Shown: one piece after another, positions 71 to 5,427 of the stretch
How the letters are laid out: every line of letters begins with the position of its first letter
Position numbering within the stretch: position 1 is the stretch's first letter
Assembly: GCA_009885955.1 (NCBI GenBank)
Contig: VFJS01000078.1
Span: forward strand, 1 to 33,518
Direction of reading: 5' to 3'
From: Spirochaetia bacterium
GTDB lineage: Bacteria > Spirochaetota > UBA4802 > UBA5550
Length of the DNA stretch: 33,518 nt
The notes under the pieces: generated by a model
Database searches by the model: none
The model's input: only the letters and a program-made list of their open reading frames with translations
What the model was told of the DNA's origin: nothing
Position numbers and translations under genes: made by a program

Positions 71-754
71 TTGACTTATGGGAAGATGGGGTTTATCGAG
101 CGCTTACTAATATTTGCCTTGTTTAATCGAAAATTTGCATGGAAGATTGTTATTTTATATGCCAGGTTTGCACTTAATACGATATTCAAGGTTGAGATTA
201 TTGTTGAGAACCACAACAACAATGAAGATTTGAAAAATGGTAATTATATTCTTTTAGGACTGAACCAGGAAAGTCTGCTTGATGCACTGGTATATCCTGC
301 CTCTGCACCGGAATATTTTATGACGGTAATGAACATCGAGTTTGCATTAATTCCTTTATTCGGATGGGTGAGTTCAATATTCGGCTGGGTCATATTCAGA
401 CAGTGGCCAGAACATGCGAAAAAAAAACTCAATAAAGTCGTTGCATACCTGAACAATGGGGGGATAATCCATATTTCAATAGAGGGGAAGCGGTCAAAAG
501 ACGGCAGATTAAATGAATATAAAAAGGGGCCGGTAGTGCTTGCCATAAATGCTCATGCTACAATAATCCCGGTTGTCATCCATGGAATGAGGGATCGTTT
601 ACCCTATGGTTCGATGGTTATACGGCCCGGGAAAGTGATTTTTAAAATGCTGAAAGGTATCTCAACTGCCGGGATGAGTTATAATGACAGAAACGAACTG
701 GTGAATATGCTGAGAAATATTGCCGAATCTGTTTTATTTCAAAATCACCAATAA
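71..754 (+). CDS. PlsC/LPLAT-family acyltransferase-like protein with substituted catalytic His
   Basis: A 227-residue protein resembling 1-acyl-glycerol-3-phosphate acyltransferases, which move an acyl chain onto lysophospholipids at the membrane. Conserved blocks appear in the expected order: block I NQESLLD (65-71), block II around NIEFALIPLFGW (88-99), block III IEGKRS (137-142, family form PEGTRS), and block IV KGPVVLA...IIPVVI (152-170). The family HX4D motif reads Q66-X4-D71, so the general-base His is Gln. The first ~40 residues are basic and hydrophobic, which fits membrane association. The start is TTG at 71, 15 nt after GAGGG. An in-frame ATG at 86 is possible, and TGA at 65-67 blocks anything further upstream. 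It could be a non-catalytic relative, an odd active form, or a dead gene. Fold confidence is fairly high, activity is doubtful. Confidence 0.7.
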   Translation: MTYGKMGFIERLLIFALFNRKFAWKIVILYARFALNTIFKVEIIVENHNNNEDLKNGNYILLGLNQESLLDALVYPASAPEYFMTVMNIEFALIPLFGWVSSIFGWVIFRQWPEHAKKKLNKVVAYLNNGGIIHISIEGKRSKDGRLNEYKKGPVVLAINAHATIIPVVIHGMRDRLPYGSMVIRPGKVIFKMLKGISTAGMSYNDRNELVNMLRNIAESVLFQNHQ

Positions 755-828
755 TCAGGTCATTTGCCGATACAGGACTTTGACCGGCAGATATACTGGA
801 TGATGAAGGTGAACTGTTACCTGCTCCC

Positions 829-2421
829 CTACTCCACTTTGTACACCCACAGGATAAACTCAACATTGTACCCCTTCTCAAGCTTTTCTATTTTCTGTAA
901 TGTCTCATCATCACCTCCGGTTTTAATTTTGAGATTTATTGTATCAATTTTTGATTCAATCTTTTTGAGCTCGTTGTTGTTATGAATGATCTCGCTGTAA
1001 TGGCTGTAAAAGCCCTTTGCATTTAAATGATGTATCTTCTTCTTTAAGTCAGCTTCTTCTATTTTGAGCTGGGAGAGCTGGTAGGTATAGGATTTATGCT
1101 TTAAGGCCTCGATCTTCTTTAGCCTTGCTTCACCGAGGGTCATTATTTGATTCAGTTCATGGGGCTCTACGCAGGTGAGGATAAGTGTGATGGTGTCTAT
1201 TCCCTTTTCCAGTTTTATGAAGTCATTTGATTTGATATCAGGGAAATAGTTGTATATGGTGACCCTGCCGGAGACATAGGATCCGGGTGGGATGTTATTC
1301 AGCTCATTCAGATTACTGCCGGAAAGTTTTTCAACTGTTGTTGCCTTCTCGGTTCTTATTATCTCAATTTCATTTATATCTGACTTTTTCAGTATAATTC
1401 TTTTTGAATTCTTGAGCAAGAATATCTTTTCCGGGAAAATGTTGAGTACCGGGAGTTCAATTTCTACAATCTCCCTAATTATATTGTCAAAATAGTTTAT
1501 CTTTGCAATGCACTGAAACTTGCTGTTATACTGATAGTCTTTCATGGCTCCTTCATAGTGCCTGTAAAAAAGTTTGCTCACTGTACGGATCGCTTTGGTG
1601 AAGGAGAAGGTTTTGCCTGACAGGGACACTGCAAGGATGATTATTATAAATAGAAGGAGATATTCCTTCCAGGAGGAGACGAGGATCCTGAATGAGGTTG
1701 TCCGAAAGGAGATGTATTCCTTCACCGACAAAGGGGCAAAGAGCTTTATGCCGGAATAGTTGAATAAATCAATGAATATATGGCTTGAATAGGCAATGAT
1801 GGAGGCAATATAAAAAGATTCTGAGATAATCATTACCAGTACCATGGCAACTGCAAGGATGAAGACTGCAAAGACCGAATGGGTCACTGTCCGGTGGCCG
1901 TATTTTCTTAAGATCCATCGTGCAAGGCCGGGAAAGATCCTCCCGATGAGGCTTTCGGGATGGTCAATGTCGGGGAGGAGTGCGGGGGGAATTCTATTTG
2001 TAGTAGGAGGGGGAAAAGTCCTTGAAATTTTCAGGGCACCGAAGAATACCATCATTGCATCTCCTACAAACTTATCGATGGTTCCTCCATGCTTGTGTGC
2101 AATGTATGTCATCTCTTTAATGTATTCATTGAGCATTGATGAAAGCTCTTCTGGTTCCATGTTATCGGTGATTTCTGTGAAGCCTTTGATGTCGGAGAAA
2201 AAGATTGTTAGTTTTTTGCGTTCTGTTTTGAATGTGGATGTTTGCTCACCCTTGATAATGGAATCAACGAGTTGTATTGGAAGGTATTTTTTTATTCCAT
2301 TTGTAATGGTTTCCATTTGTGATTTTGCAATATGTATTTTCAACATAGTGGAAATTCCACAAATATATGATAAAAACAGATTCCGGAAATCGATAAAAAC
2401 CAGAAAGTATTTCCTATCCAA
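829..2421 (-). CDS. chimeric ORF: truncated class III cyclase joined to a YdjM/DUF457 membrane domain
   Basis: Residues 44-129 match the first half of a class III adenylate/guanylate cyclase domain. They include the linker YLPIQLVDSI and both metal-binding Asp regions, FFSDIKGFT (D77) and DKFVGDAMMVFFG (D121). The second half of the ~180-residue domain is missing. At about residue 145 the sequence continues as a YdjM-type (DUF457, predicted membrane metal hydrolase) protein lacking its usual N-terminus: LLPDIDHP (148-155), YGHRTVTHS (175-182), SHIFID (213-218). A membrane helix follows at ~254-270, then a charged ~260-residue tail with coiled-coil-like stretches, which I do not recognise. The only long start is TTG at 2421 with no clear ribosome binding site, and no sensor domain precedes the cyclase part. 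It looks like fusion by deletion or recombination of two genes. A functional fusion or an assembly error cannot be excluded. Confidence 0.65.
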   Translation of the reverse strand: MDRKYFLVFIDFRNLFLSYICGISTMLKIHIAKSQMETITNGIKKYLPIQLVDSIIKGEQTSTFKTERKKLTIFFSDIKGFTEITDNMEPEELSSMLNEYIKEMTYIAHKHGGTIDKFVGDAMMVFFGALKISRTFPPPTTNRIPPALLPDIDHPESLIGRIFPGLARWILRKYGHRTVTHSVFAVFILAVAMVLVMIISESFYIASIIAYSSHIFIDLFNYSGIKLFAPLSVKEYISFRTTSFRILVSSWKEYLLLFIIIILAVSLSGKTFSFTKAIRTVSKLFYRHYEGAMKDYQYNSKFQCIAKINYFDNIIREIVEIELPVLNIFPEKIFLLKNSKRIILKKSDINEIEIIRTEKATTVEKLSGSNLNELNNIPPGSYVSGRVTIYNYFPDIKSNDFIKLEKGIDTITLILTCVEPHELNQIMTLGEARLKKIEALKHKSYTYQLSQLKIEEADLKKKIHHLNAKGFYSHYSEIIHNNNELKKIESKIDTINLKIKTGGDDETLQKIEKLEKGYNVEFILWVYKVE

Positions 2422-2471
2422 GGGACATATAACATCTTCTCGGAATCAATTTTCATGAAAAAAAGTAAGTT

Positions 2472-2495
2472 TATGCACTCTGCCTTAAAATTTAC
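2472..2495 (+). repeat. direct repeat copy 1 (24 bp)
   Basis: This copy matches 3770-3793 at 21 of 24 positions in the same orientation; the core is TATGCAC-CTG-CTTAAAATTT. The two copies bracket the brnTA pair and the broken DUF1566 gene, about 1.3 kb apart. It may be a scar of insertion or duplication. No transposase belongs to it. Confidence 0.5.
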
Positions 2496-2540
2496 ATGAA
2501 AAACAGCGGGATATTCTCCCAAAATACAAATAATTATTTC

Positions 2541-2577
2541 TTGACATTAATTTATTCTATAATTATATTATAATTAT
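2541..2577 (+). promoter_or_regulatory. brnTA promoter and palindromic operator
   Basis: TTGACA (2541-2546) and TATATT (2564-2569) are separated by 17 bp. A 19-bp palindrome with perfect 9-bp arms (2559-2567 and 2569-2577, centre T2568) covers the -10 box and reaches into the brnT start codon. BrnA antitoxins are known to repress their own operon by binding promoter inverted repeats, so this is the likely operator. The predicted transcript start falls at or next to the ATG at 2576, and no Shine-Dalgarno is seen, which suggests a leaderless mRNA. The AT-richness lowers the significance of the palindrome. Confidence 0.5.
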
Positions 2578-2869
2578 GGCAGAGATTTCCTTTATATGGG
2601 ACCCCCAAAAAGACTCTTCCAATATCCAGAAGCACGGGATCTCTTTTAAGGAAGCCAGGTCGGTTTTTCATGATGATTATGCCCGTCTCATGCATGATCC
2701 CGATCACTCCTAAGATGAAGATAGATTTCTCATACTCGGAATGAGTGAAAAGCTGAATGTTCTCGTGGTTTGCCATTGCTACAAAGAGAAGGATGAAATC
2801 ATAAGGATAATTTCAGCACGCAAGGCGACAAGAAACGAAAAAAAAACATACCAGGAGTTCAAGAAATGA
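2576..2869 (+). pseudogene. brnT: BrnT-family toxin gene interrupted by an in-frame TAA
   Basis: The frame encodes a BrnT toxin (RelE-like ribonuclease fold that cuts RNA) of about 97 residues. It has the hallmark N-terminus FIWDPQK (6-12), NIQKHGISFKEA (16-27) and VFHDD, and the C-terminal core IIRIISARKATRNEK. Codon 46 (2711-2713) is TAA in an otherwise intact frame (DPDHS-stop-DEDRFLILG), where the family usually has a polar residue. Reading resumes in the same frame to TGA at 2867-2869, so this is a point nonsense change and not a frameshift. Restart at ATG codon 55 would lose the N-terminal half. The stop overlaps the brnA start (ATGA), the usual coupled arrangement. Most likely an inactivated toxin; a sequencing error is the main alternative. 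Confidence 0.8.
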
Positions 2870-3075
2870 GAAAAGAATACAACTTCATCAATTCCATGAA
2901 AAACCCCTACCCGGCCAGGCTAAAAAAACAGATAACCATTAAAATCGACGGGGAGACAATCGATTATTTCAAGTCACTGGCCGCTGAAACGGGCATTCCC
3001 TACCAGAACCTGATAAACCTCTACCTGGCCGATTGCGCCCAAAGCCATAAAAAGCCTAAGCTTAACTGGAAATGA
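2866..3075 (+). CDS. brnA: BrnA-family antitoxin
   Basis: A 69-residue protein with the BrnA/CopG-like layout: a short N-terminal tail that would wrap the toxin, then the core LKKQITIKIDGETIDYFKSLA (about 19-39) and PYQNLINLYLADC, a ribbon-helix-helix DNA-binding dimerisation unit. BrnA neutralises BrnT and represses the shared promoter. Its ATG overlaps the last codons of brnT, so it depends on translation through brnT or on internal initiation. The brnT nonsense codon lies ~150 nt upstream and could cause polar effects. It appears complete and undamaged. Confidence 0.75.
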   Translation: MRKEYNFINSMKNPYPARLKKQITIKIDGETIDYFKSLAAETGIPYQNLINLYLADCAQSHKKPKLNWK

Positions 3076-3168
3076 TATGAGCCTCCGGCTTCAAAGTCAT
3101 TGCGGCATGTTCGGCAAAATTCGAAAATTTCAATGATCCCCTAATCTTAAATATTGGCCTCTATTTGT

Positions 3169-3708
3169 TTATTTGTTCTCAATAACACATCGAACAAAAT
3201 TTTTATTCGGCTCATAACCGGATTTCAAAGAACCATTATAGAAAGTAAAATAAACAGTAAAACTTGAAGTAGTTGGGTATTTATCTGAAGCCCAGTATGT
3301 TCCTGATGGATTTTTAAACGCTTCCTTATTTTGTTTGTATGTTTCATCCAGTTCATCCTTTGTGGGAAGCCTCATACCTTTTGATTTGCAATAGCTGTCA
3401 GCCTCAGGCCATGATAGGTTTGCAACCTTATCATCCCATGTCAATCTTCCGAAATTGATCTTTTCAACAACTGCATCACCCTCTGACATTGCTGTCATTT
3501 TAACATCCACTATTTCAAGGTTGAGGTCATATATCTTTTCAATTGCTTGATTATTTTCCTTAAAAATGATCAGAATATATAATCGGATTGTTTTTCCTTT
3601 AAATTTGTTTAAAAAATTATCTTTAGATAATAAAAAACTTTTATTATAAATATCGTCCCTTGGATTTTTTTCAAAATGTTTATTAACATTTGTTAAAAAT
3701 ATACGGCC
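3169..3708 (-). pseudogene. 5'-truncated DUF1566 (Lcl_C) domain gene
   Basis: The C-terminal ~110 residues carry a DUF1566/C-type-lectin-like domain: LTWDDKVANLSWPEADSYC, then KGMRLPTKDEL, YWASDK, and a closing FVRCV with the paired Cys. In the family this domain is usually the C-terminal part of exported proteins. The frame stays open upstream of the GTG at 3510 to a TAG at 3709-3711, giving about 66 more codons that look protein-like but contain no ATG, GTG or TTG. Stops in this frame lie just beyond. The gene has therefore lost its 5' part, including any signal peptide. A short gene from GTG 3510 (113 residues) is possible but has no convincing ribosome binding site. Confidence 0.6.
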
Positions 3709-3769
3709 CTATTCAAGAGACAGAATAAAGGTTATAAGAAACTCCATATGTATGACAAATAATCAAATC

Positions 3770-3793
3770 TATGCACACTGTCTTAAAATTTGC
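3770..3793 (+). repeat. direct repeat copy 2 (24 bp)
   Basis: Same orientation as 2472-2495 with 21 of 24 bases identical. It lies just upstream of the truncated DUF1566 frame. Together the copies delimit a ~1.3-kb segment made of a toxin-antitoxin pair and a gene fragment. Confidence 0.5.
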
Positions 3794-3898
3794 GCCGTCC
3801 CAAAAAATGAAAAACTTACCTCTTCTGTATACTTTTACAGTAATAAATATTTAAGTAATGTCACCAATTTTTTGCTGATTTAGAAACTCGAATTTCCC

Positions 3899-4225
3899 TC
3901 ATGGAGGAATTGATTTTCTGTTCTCTTTTTTATGAGGTATGAAATAGCCTTTTATTATAGCATGTGTCTTAATCAACTTTTTGATTTCTCTATCTGCAAA
4001 AAATGAAAAAACAGCATCAGGCAACATAAAAGTTGAACACTCCGGGCATTCTTCCGGAGTTTTTTCAAAAGACTTCAAAATTGCCAGAGCCCAGGTTTTA
4101 CAGTCTATCTCTTTTAAATTAAAAAAGATTAACCACGAAAGGCTCGAACAGTACGAAAAGGGAAAATATTTTCTTTCGAGTTTTTCGTGTTTTTCGTGGT
4201 ACAATTCTTTTCTTTCTATATACAT
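3899..4225 (-). pseudogene. possible IS91-like transposase C-terminal remnant
   Basis: From about 4108 downwards the frame reads like the end of an IS91-type (Y2) transposase. A TWALAILKSFEKTPEECPEC block resembles the family pattern W-x-LL-x-F-x-DP-x-CP-x-C-G, and is followed by a helix-like DREIKKLIKTHAI. The first ~35 residues derive from an intergenic CACGAAA repeat (4131-4200) and are probably not original coding sequence. No catalytic region is present, so this would be a dead fragment. The opposite strand also holds a 93-codon frame (3981-4262) with no family resemblance. The call rests on pattern memory only. Confidence 0.35.
4131..4200. repeat. CACGAAA-type inverted repeat downstream of the alcohol dehydrogenase gene
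   Basis: ACCACGAAA (4132-4140) pairs with TTTCGTGGT (4192-4200), and inner CTCGAA/TTCGAG segments can also pair. In minus-strand RNA the 3' arm is followed by TAATCTTTTTTAA, so it may end the alcohol dehydrogenase operon. A 15-bp piece (4126-4140) recurs exactly, in reverse orientation, at 12440-12454. Confidence 0.5.
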
Positions 4226-4248
4226 AATTACAAATCATCATGAATGTG

Positions 4249-5427
4249 TCATAACCTATTAATCACTATACTCCGTATCTGTTCTCTCGTCAGAGGTACC
4301 GGATTGTTCTTGTAACCGGCCCCGTCTATAATCTTTTCAACATCCATTTCTTTCACCCCGTAAGCACCGAGGCGGGGAATGTTCAGCTCATCAATCCATC
4401 CATATACTGTTTCAATCAATTTCATACAGCATCCCCTGATATCCTTTACATCAGCGCCGGTTAACAGAGAACCTGCCCTGGCATATTTATCCAGTGCAAC
4501 GTTCCCGCCGGTTTCAAGAAGGATGGAGATATTCATGCGTATTGCCTCACCTGCCAGCGAGCCGCATATTACGCCATGGGGGATATCAAAATATCCTCCA
4601 ATGGGCGATGCAAGGCCGTGTATAATTCCCAGGCCGGCATTTGCAAGGGCCAGCCCTGAAAAAAGTGCTGCCAGGGCCATGCTGCCGCGGAGGCTGATAT
4701 TGTCAGGCTCCGAGTTGCATAGCGGTACAAGGGAATCCCGCACAATTTCCAAGCCTTTCAGTGCCAGGGCGTCGGTAAAGGGCGATGCCGCTTTTGACAC
4801 ATAGGAGCCAAGGAGCTGGGTAAAGGCATCCATCCCTGCTGCTGCCGTGATATGTCCCGGAGTACCGAGGGCAAGTTCAGGATCTATGATTGCTGTATCA
4901 GGGACAAACTTTTCATGGCGCAGTGATTTTTTGAAGCCCAGAGGGCCTATCCGGCTTAACACCGCATTTTTTGTAGCCTCGCTCCCTGTACCTGCTGTAG
5001 TCGGCACTGCTATGAAGGGGAGTTTCCTGCCGTCATGGGCCTTTCCCATGCCGGCGCCTTCAAGGTAATCCATGACACTTCCGTCAACGGGAATCATTGC
5101 TGATATTGCCTTCCCGCAATCCACAACGCTCCCGCCGCCCACGGCAACGACAGCGGCAATTCCATCACTTCTGAAGCGGCTTACCGCAGCATCGACAATT
5201 TCAGGAGACGGTTCATTTTTTATGGTGATATGACGGTAACCGATTCCGCTGCCGGTGAGATGGTCAATGAGCATCTGCATCCTGCCTGACCTGGCCAGGG
5301 AGGAGTCTCCTGTGACAAGGAGTATGCGTCTCCCGTATTTTTTTATCTGTTCAGGAAGTTCTTTTATTTTGCCCGGCCCGTAAATTATATCAGGCACTCC
5401 GGAAAAAATGAAGGGGGCTATTTCCAT
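4249..5427 (-). CDS. iron-type (group III) alcohol dehydrogenase
   Basis: A 392-residue NAD(P)-dependent dehydrogenase of the Fe-ADH superfamily, acting on alcohols or aldehydes in the cytoplasm. It has the Rossmann GGGS (97-100) with D103, the PTTAGTGSE segment (142-150), and the metal-site blocks GMDAFTQ (198-204) and HGLASPIGGYFDIPHG. Metal ligands would be D200, H270 and H284. The second ligand, His in FucO-type enzymes, is Q204, a variant I also associate with other family members. The start ATG has AAGGA close upstream and lies inside the last codons of the LsrG-like gene (10-nt overlap), so translation is probably coupled. The substrate is unknown; the neighbour hints at a small hydroxy-ketone or aldehyde, which is inference. 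Confidence 0.85.
   Translation of the reverse strand: MEIAPFIFSGVPDIIYGPGKIKELPEQIKKYGRRILLVTGDSSLARSGRMQMLIDHLTGSGIGYRHITIKNEPSPEIVDAAVSRFRSDGIAAVVAVGGGSVVDCGKAISAMIPVDGSVMDYLEGAGMGKAHDGRKLPFIAVPTTAGTGSEATKNAVLSRIGPLGFKKSLRHEKFVPDTAIIDPELALGTPGHITAAAGMDAFTQLLGSYVSKAASPFTDALALKGLEIVRDSLVPLCNSEPDNISLRGSMALAALFSGLALANAGLGIIHGLASPIGGYFDIPHGVICGSLAGEAIRMNISILLETGGNVALDKYARAGSLLTGADVKDIRGCCMKLIETVYGWIDELNIPRLGAYGVKEMDVEKIIDGAGYKNNPVPLTREQIRSIVINRL

Follow-up and report, generated by a model that had tools for sequence, protein, structure and literature searches.

The window analysed here, a stretch of 33,518 nucleotides from a Spirochaetia bacterium (contig VFJS01000078.1), carries on its minus strand an open frame in which the beginning of a class III cyclase gene is joined to a DUF457 gene without its start. 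The features of the region are given below.

829–2421, minus strand: chimeric open frame, 530 amino acids from TTG at 2421 or 505 amino acids from ATG at 2346.
832–1983, minus strand: YdjM/DUF457 protein (Pfam), N-terminal part absent, long C-terminal extension.
1984–2033, plus strand: right end of an IS21-family element with two end repeats, 51/51 bp identical to C104:554–604.
2034–2346, minus strand: 5' part of a class III cyclase gene, up to DAMMVFFGA; the remaining catalytic domain is absent.
2345–2493, minus strand: copy of a dispersed repeat of about 160 bp that delimits cassette-like units; the ATG at 2346 lies at the edge of this copy.
3700–3791, minus strand: partial second copy of the same repeat, in the same orientation.

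Both fragments are clear sequence members of their Pfam families, from which they differ in that a large part of each domain is absent. Residues 68–130 of the frame match Guanylate_cyc at profile positions 6–68 of 183, which by Pfam positions is the first third of the class III cyclase domain. Class III cyclases require residues from the second half of this domain, the half that is absent in the chimera, and a complete catalytic domain is needed for an active enzyme. Residues 147–266 match YdjM (DUF457) at positions 37–146 of 176, and the first 36 profile positions are absent. DUF457 proteins require a conserved N-terminal histidine segment; the chimera lacks the complete domain with this segment and, compared with the copy at C51, also the protein start. 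The genome also holds intact paralogues with matches to nearly whole profiles (6–179 of 183 for the cyclase at C21, 1–164 of 176 for the DUF457 gene at C51), and the truncation of both halves is therefore real. The initial annotation had described a cyclase/DUF457 chimera in one open frame, in which either half is without the part expected beyond the junction, and this description is confirmed. It also had the two halves meeting directly, which does not hold, as the 50-bp IS21 right end between them had been overlooked.

Cyclase coding sequence stops at 2034 and DUF457 coding sequence begins at 1983; positions 1984–2033 belong to neither and, with the flanking base, translate as LKISRTFPPPTTNRIPP. 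The IS terminus (..TTTTCA, at 2033) abuts the cyclase and the broken interior side (1984) abuts DUF457, the IS interior being absent and DUF457 resuming at ALLPDIDHP. Base 1983 is common to the IS end and DUF457. A search of the organism's own genome (4.77 Mb, 117 contigs, 98% complete) identified positions 1983–2033 at C104:554–604 with 51/51 identical bases (E 7e-20), more than chance would give, and, with bases 1400–2700 as query, at C74 with 96% identity. The same query was matched up to about 2030 by cyclase paralogues (C21, C35) and to about 1985 by the DUF457 paralogue (C51). At the right IS terminus, which lies one base inside the codon following FFGA, C21 reads GGTGCCCCTGAA / GGTGCCCCTGAATC where the window has GGTGCCC joined to TGAAAA (GGTGCCC joined to TGAAAATTTC). 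The window diverges from C21 at the IS terminus, and therefore the cyclase ends exactly there. On the other side, the IS is broken after the second C-run; DUF457 starts at GCACTCCTCCCC and from there aligns with C51 codon by codon. The joined sequences may have shared a CCG microhomology at this break.

In C104, an IstB frame (Pfam IstB_IS21, 1.9e-57; PDB IS5376 IstB, 5.3e-43) immediately precedes the right end. All four places (the window, C104, C74 and C51) share the outer 28 bases and the terminus TGAAAATTTC… and diverge just outside the terminal TG/CA of ..TTTTCA. The motif TTCCCCC recurs every 24 bp in the right end, at 19, 43, 67 and 91 from the terminus, and the left end has repeats at 21, 45, 69 and 93, also spaced by 24 bp. 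According to PMC10122671, IS21 ends have a terminal CA and direct repeats (R1, R2) at a spacing of 23 bp (23 bp in IS5376). The present element resembles IS21 and IS5376 in its IstB relative, its terminal CA and the even spacing of direct repeats in either end, whereas the junction holds a right end with two repeats alone and neither istA nor istB. Linked istA and istB are found on contigs other than that of the junction: in C104 istB adjoins the right end, and in C51 the left end is accompanied by a weakly supported istA-like start (0 Pfam families; IS5376 IstA, E 0.06), the intact element being divided between these two contigs. Comparison of the C51 and C104 flanks with an uninterrupted site in C88 gave no clear 5-bp target duplication, the left terminus not being placed exactly; in the window the second IS flank is lost, so a target-site duplication cannot show there. 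Two further solo right ends without interior were observed, one of 28 bp at L115 9203–9230 (C51) and one of about 60 bp near L010 1971 (C74), and no solo left end was present among the three matches in the genome. The 28- and 50-bp remnants end just past the first and the second end repeat.

The cyclase half shares 87% amino acid identity with the intact C21 cyclase over 103 codons, with 9/4/47 differences by codon position, and the DUF457 half shares 51% with the intact C51 copy over 381 codons. By our reading, no orphan distal cyclase half was among 16 own-genome matches, nor was there an orphan DUF457 start, the two own-genome matches being C51 and the window itself (the latter from residue 30 of the DUF457 start on). 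Of five intact DUF457 copies examined, four (two in HGW-Spirochaetae-5, one in UBA5550, plus C51) directly follow a gene for a Xer-like recombinase that carries an AAA domain; the fifth (L043) has 195 bp upstream only, with no recombinase match therein. A conserved module consisting of a divergent secreted-like gene, the recombinase and the DUF457 gene was seen at L042 1558–5179, L045, L044 and L115 2359–5009. Its recombinase is a Xer-like tyrosine recombinase without the N-terminal domain, fused to an AAA ATPase, and its DUF457 product is a membrane protein whose C-terminus carries a long extension. Short frames with the C-terminal part of DUF457 only are located at G033:C136, G014:C28, G032:C140, G000:C46:17461–17691 and G000:C51:1–243, as if the 3' end had been left behind repeatedly.

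A search with the whole frame matched 58 of 59 genomes, nearly all of them with the cyclase half among the matches listed; also among the matches listed, three near full-length DUF457 matches outside the own genome start at residue 147. The DUF457 half alone matched 12 of 392 genomes of the phylum, with near full-length copies in three (the own genome, G004 and G016), and in this search three full-length matches outside the own genome sit in 424-aa frames. Eight loci were found in the genome contigs, four of them full-length and every one with its own start. G004 and G016 on the one hand and L042/L045 and L044 on the other are probably the same records, counted twice. Outside the window, the fusion was found neither among the matches listed for the 59 genomes nor at the eight loci nor in the 392 genomes. 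Viral contigs held no relative of the DUF457 half, and Rfam over 700–4500 gave one chance match only, below its gathering score.

At the start of the chimeric frame, the repeat of about 160 bp belongs to a set of about 45 copies (tally from match lists; L101–L116) spread over 30 contigs, and these are co-oriented in 11/11 multi-copy contigs (p about 3e-5 if independent). The units between repeats hold one to a few small genes, often toxin-antitoxin-like or otherwise short (our naming), and the arrangement looks like an integron-type cassette array. The repeat is not a canonical attC, since AAC/GTT core boxes (RYYYAAC, GTTRRRY) are absent on both consensus strands and the DNA fold is weak. For an IntI integrase, 14 matches to TIGR02249 were obtained in the genome with 0 over the cut-off; as the genome is 98% complete, this absence is not final. 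Treponema phagedenis has attC sites without intI, according to PMC3607928. A tie of the repeat to the DUF457/recombinase module was also rejected, as the module-carrying G004 and G016 and the C51 contig had no repeat match. Among 30 genomes searched, two matched the repeat, the window's own and another weakly; a 19-row alignment was left out because strands were mixed in some rows. In C11 (L104 4465–5999), a transposase gene with an rve domain lies between repeat halves split at consensus 94/95, and several other copies begin at the consensus position of this split, near contig ends. By eye, window positions 2577–3075 hold a BrnT-like toxin frame, interrupted by an in-frame stop near 2711, and after it a BrnA-like gene (2866–3075).

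Insertion sequences are known in general to fuse genes through deletions that start from them. The preferred reading, with a probability of roughly 85%, is that an insertion of IS21 in the cyclase gene and a subsequent deletion into the DUF457 gene joined two broken genes. As an IS21 end lies at the junction, at least two steps would be required. An IS21-family element would have inserted into a class III cyclase gene, and a later deletion would have spared just the outer 50 bp of the IS end while taking out the remaining cyclase sequence and the first DUF457 codons; illegitimate recombination between homologies of a few bases is its probable route. The intervening DNA would have been lost as well, probably including the recombinase gene, because the window copy is without the recombinase found before DUF457 in four of five intact copies. 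The remnant would be readable by chance in the phase used and so give a single open frame. As in other gene fusions by IS-borne deletion, the IS terminus is exact on one side, the deletion is ragged on the other and two truncated genes are joined; the difference is that just 50 bp of the IS are left here, serving as an in-frame linker. Deletion-fusion predicts intact split homologues, and these occur both in the window's own genome and in relatives, with no conserved fusion in the searches above. Thus, deletion-fusion as put forward in the initial annotation remains the best reading, although the IS21 end that supplies the mechanism had been missed. The source genes had been called neighbouring and may have been, but in four of the five intact copies examined the gene directly before DUF457 encodes a recombinase and not a cyclase.

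An assembly chimera, in which a contig with the cyclase and an IS21 end and a contig with a remnant IS21 end and DUF457 collapsed over 51 bp, is unlikely. The junction is indeed an exact 51-bp repeat, 2 kb from a contig end where the sequence likewise breaks off in a repeat, one of 108 bp in common with C15. However, a comparison of 83 contig ends, 5 of them masked N, revealed 12 pairs sharing exactly 109 bp and three more sharing 108 bp, which indicates a final graph overlap of about 109 bp; because this is well above 51 bp, a collapse via the 51-bp repeat alone is hardly to be expected. Scaffolding or gap filling could have introduced an error at the junction, but even a wrong join would leave an IS21 end next to each half. 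The DNA is probably physically continuous across the junction, and contig-end overlaps may serve elsewhere as an indirect judge of assembly junctions without reads. Very poor prospects were also given to a one-ended, aberrant IS21 transposition that itself joined both genes and left the 50-bp end as its footprint. The two other solo right ends in C51 and C74, the lack of a solo left end and the stopping points of the 28- and 50-bp remnants would fit it, but there are three cases only, plain deletion of the IS interior gives the same picture and no matching second half was found. It is equally far-fetched that IS21 solo right ends, with lengths of one or two transposase-binding repeats, would weld chimeric genes in frame; in the present case, next to a cassette boundary, such an end would have attached a DUF457 membrane protein to part of a cyclase.

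The initial annotation had alternatively considered a new fusion protein. Cyclase start signals and the N-terminal segment would then drive an N-terminally trimmed DUF457 protein, and this is very improbable. The frame is kept through both joins, about 385 DUF457 codons are without a stop, and the cyclase half is strongly conserved towards C21 with its codon-position pattern. However, one of the three phases of the IS 50-mer is stop-free, and the frame has to survive the second join as well, so an open frame arises by chance in about 1 in 9 cases and function is therefore not implied. The codon pattern of the paralogue comparison predates the join (dS 1.46, near saturation). Moreover, the IS end still matches its source at 51 of 51 bp, and so there has been too little time for open frames to signal selection. 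Both domains are without large parts, and among the matches listed no relative has the fusion; the proposal of a new protein thus gains no support. The open frame without stops in either half leaves room for a functional product, which may exist, but joining by insertion and deletion would probably have left a product without both activities, and judged from its sequence the chimera is most likely a young pseudogene.

Taken as such, a puzzling chimera would have a concrete and ordinary history, being most likely a recent genetic accident rather than a new kind of protein, and caution is advised against cataloguing it as a domain architecture.
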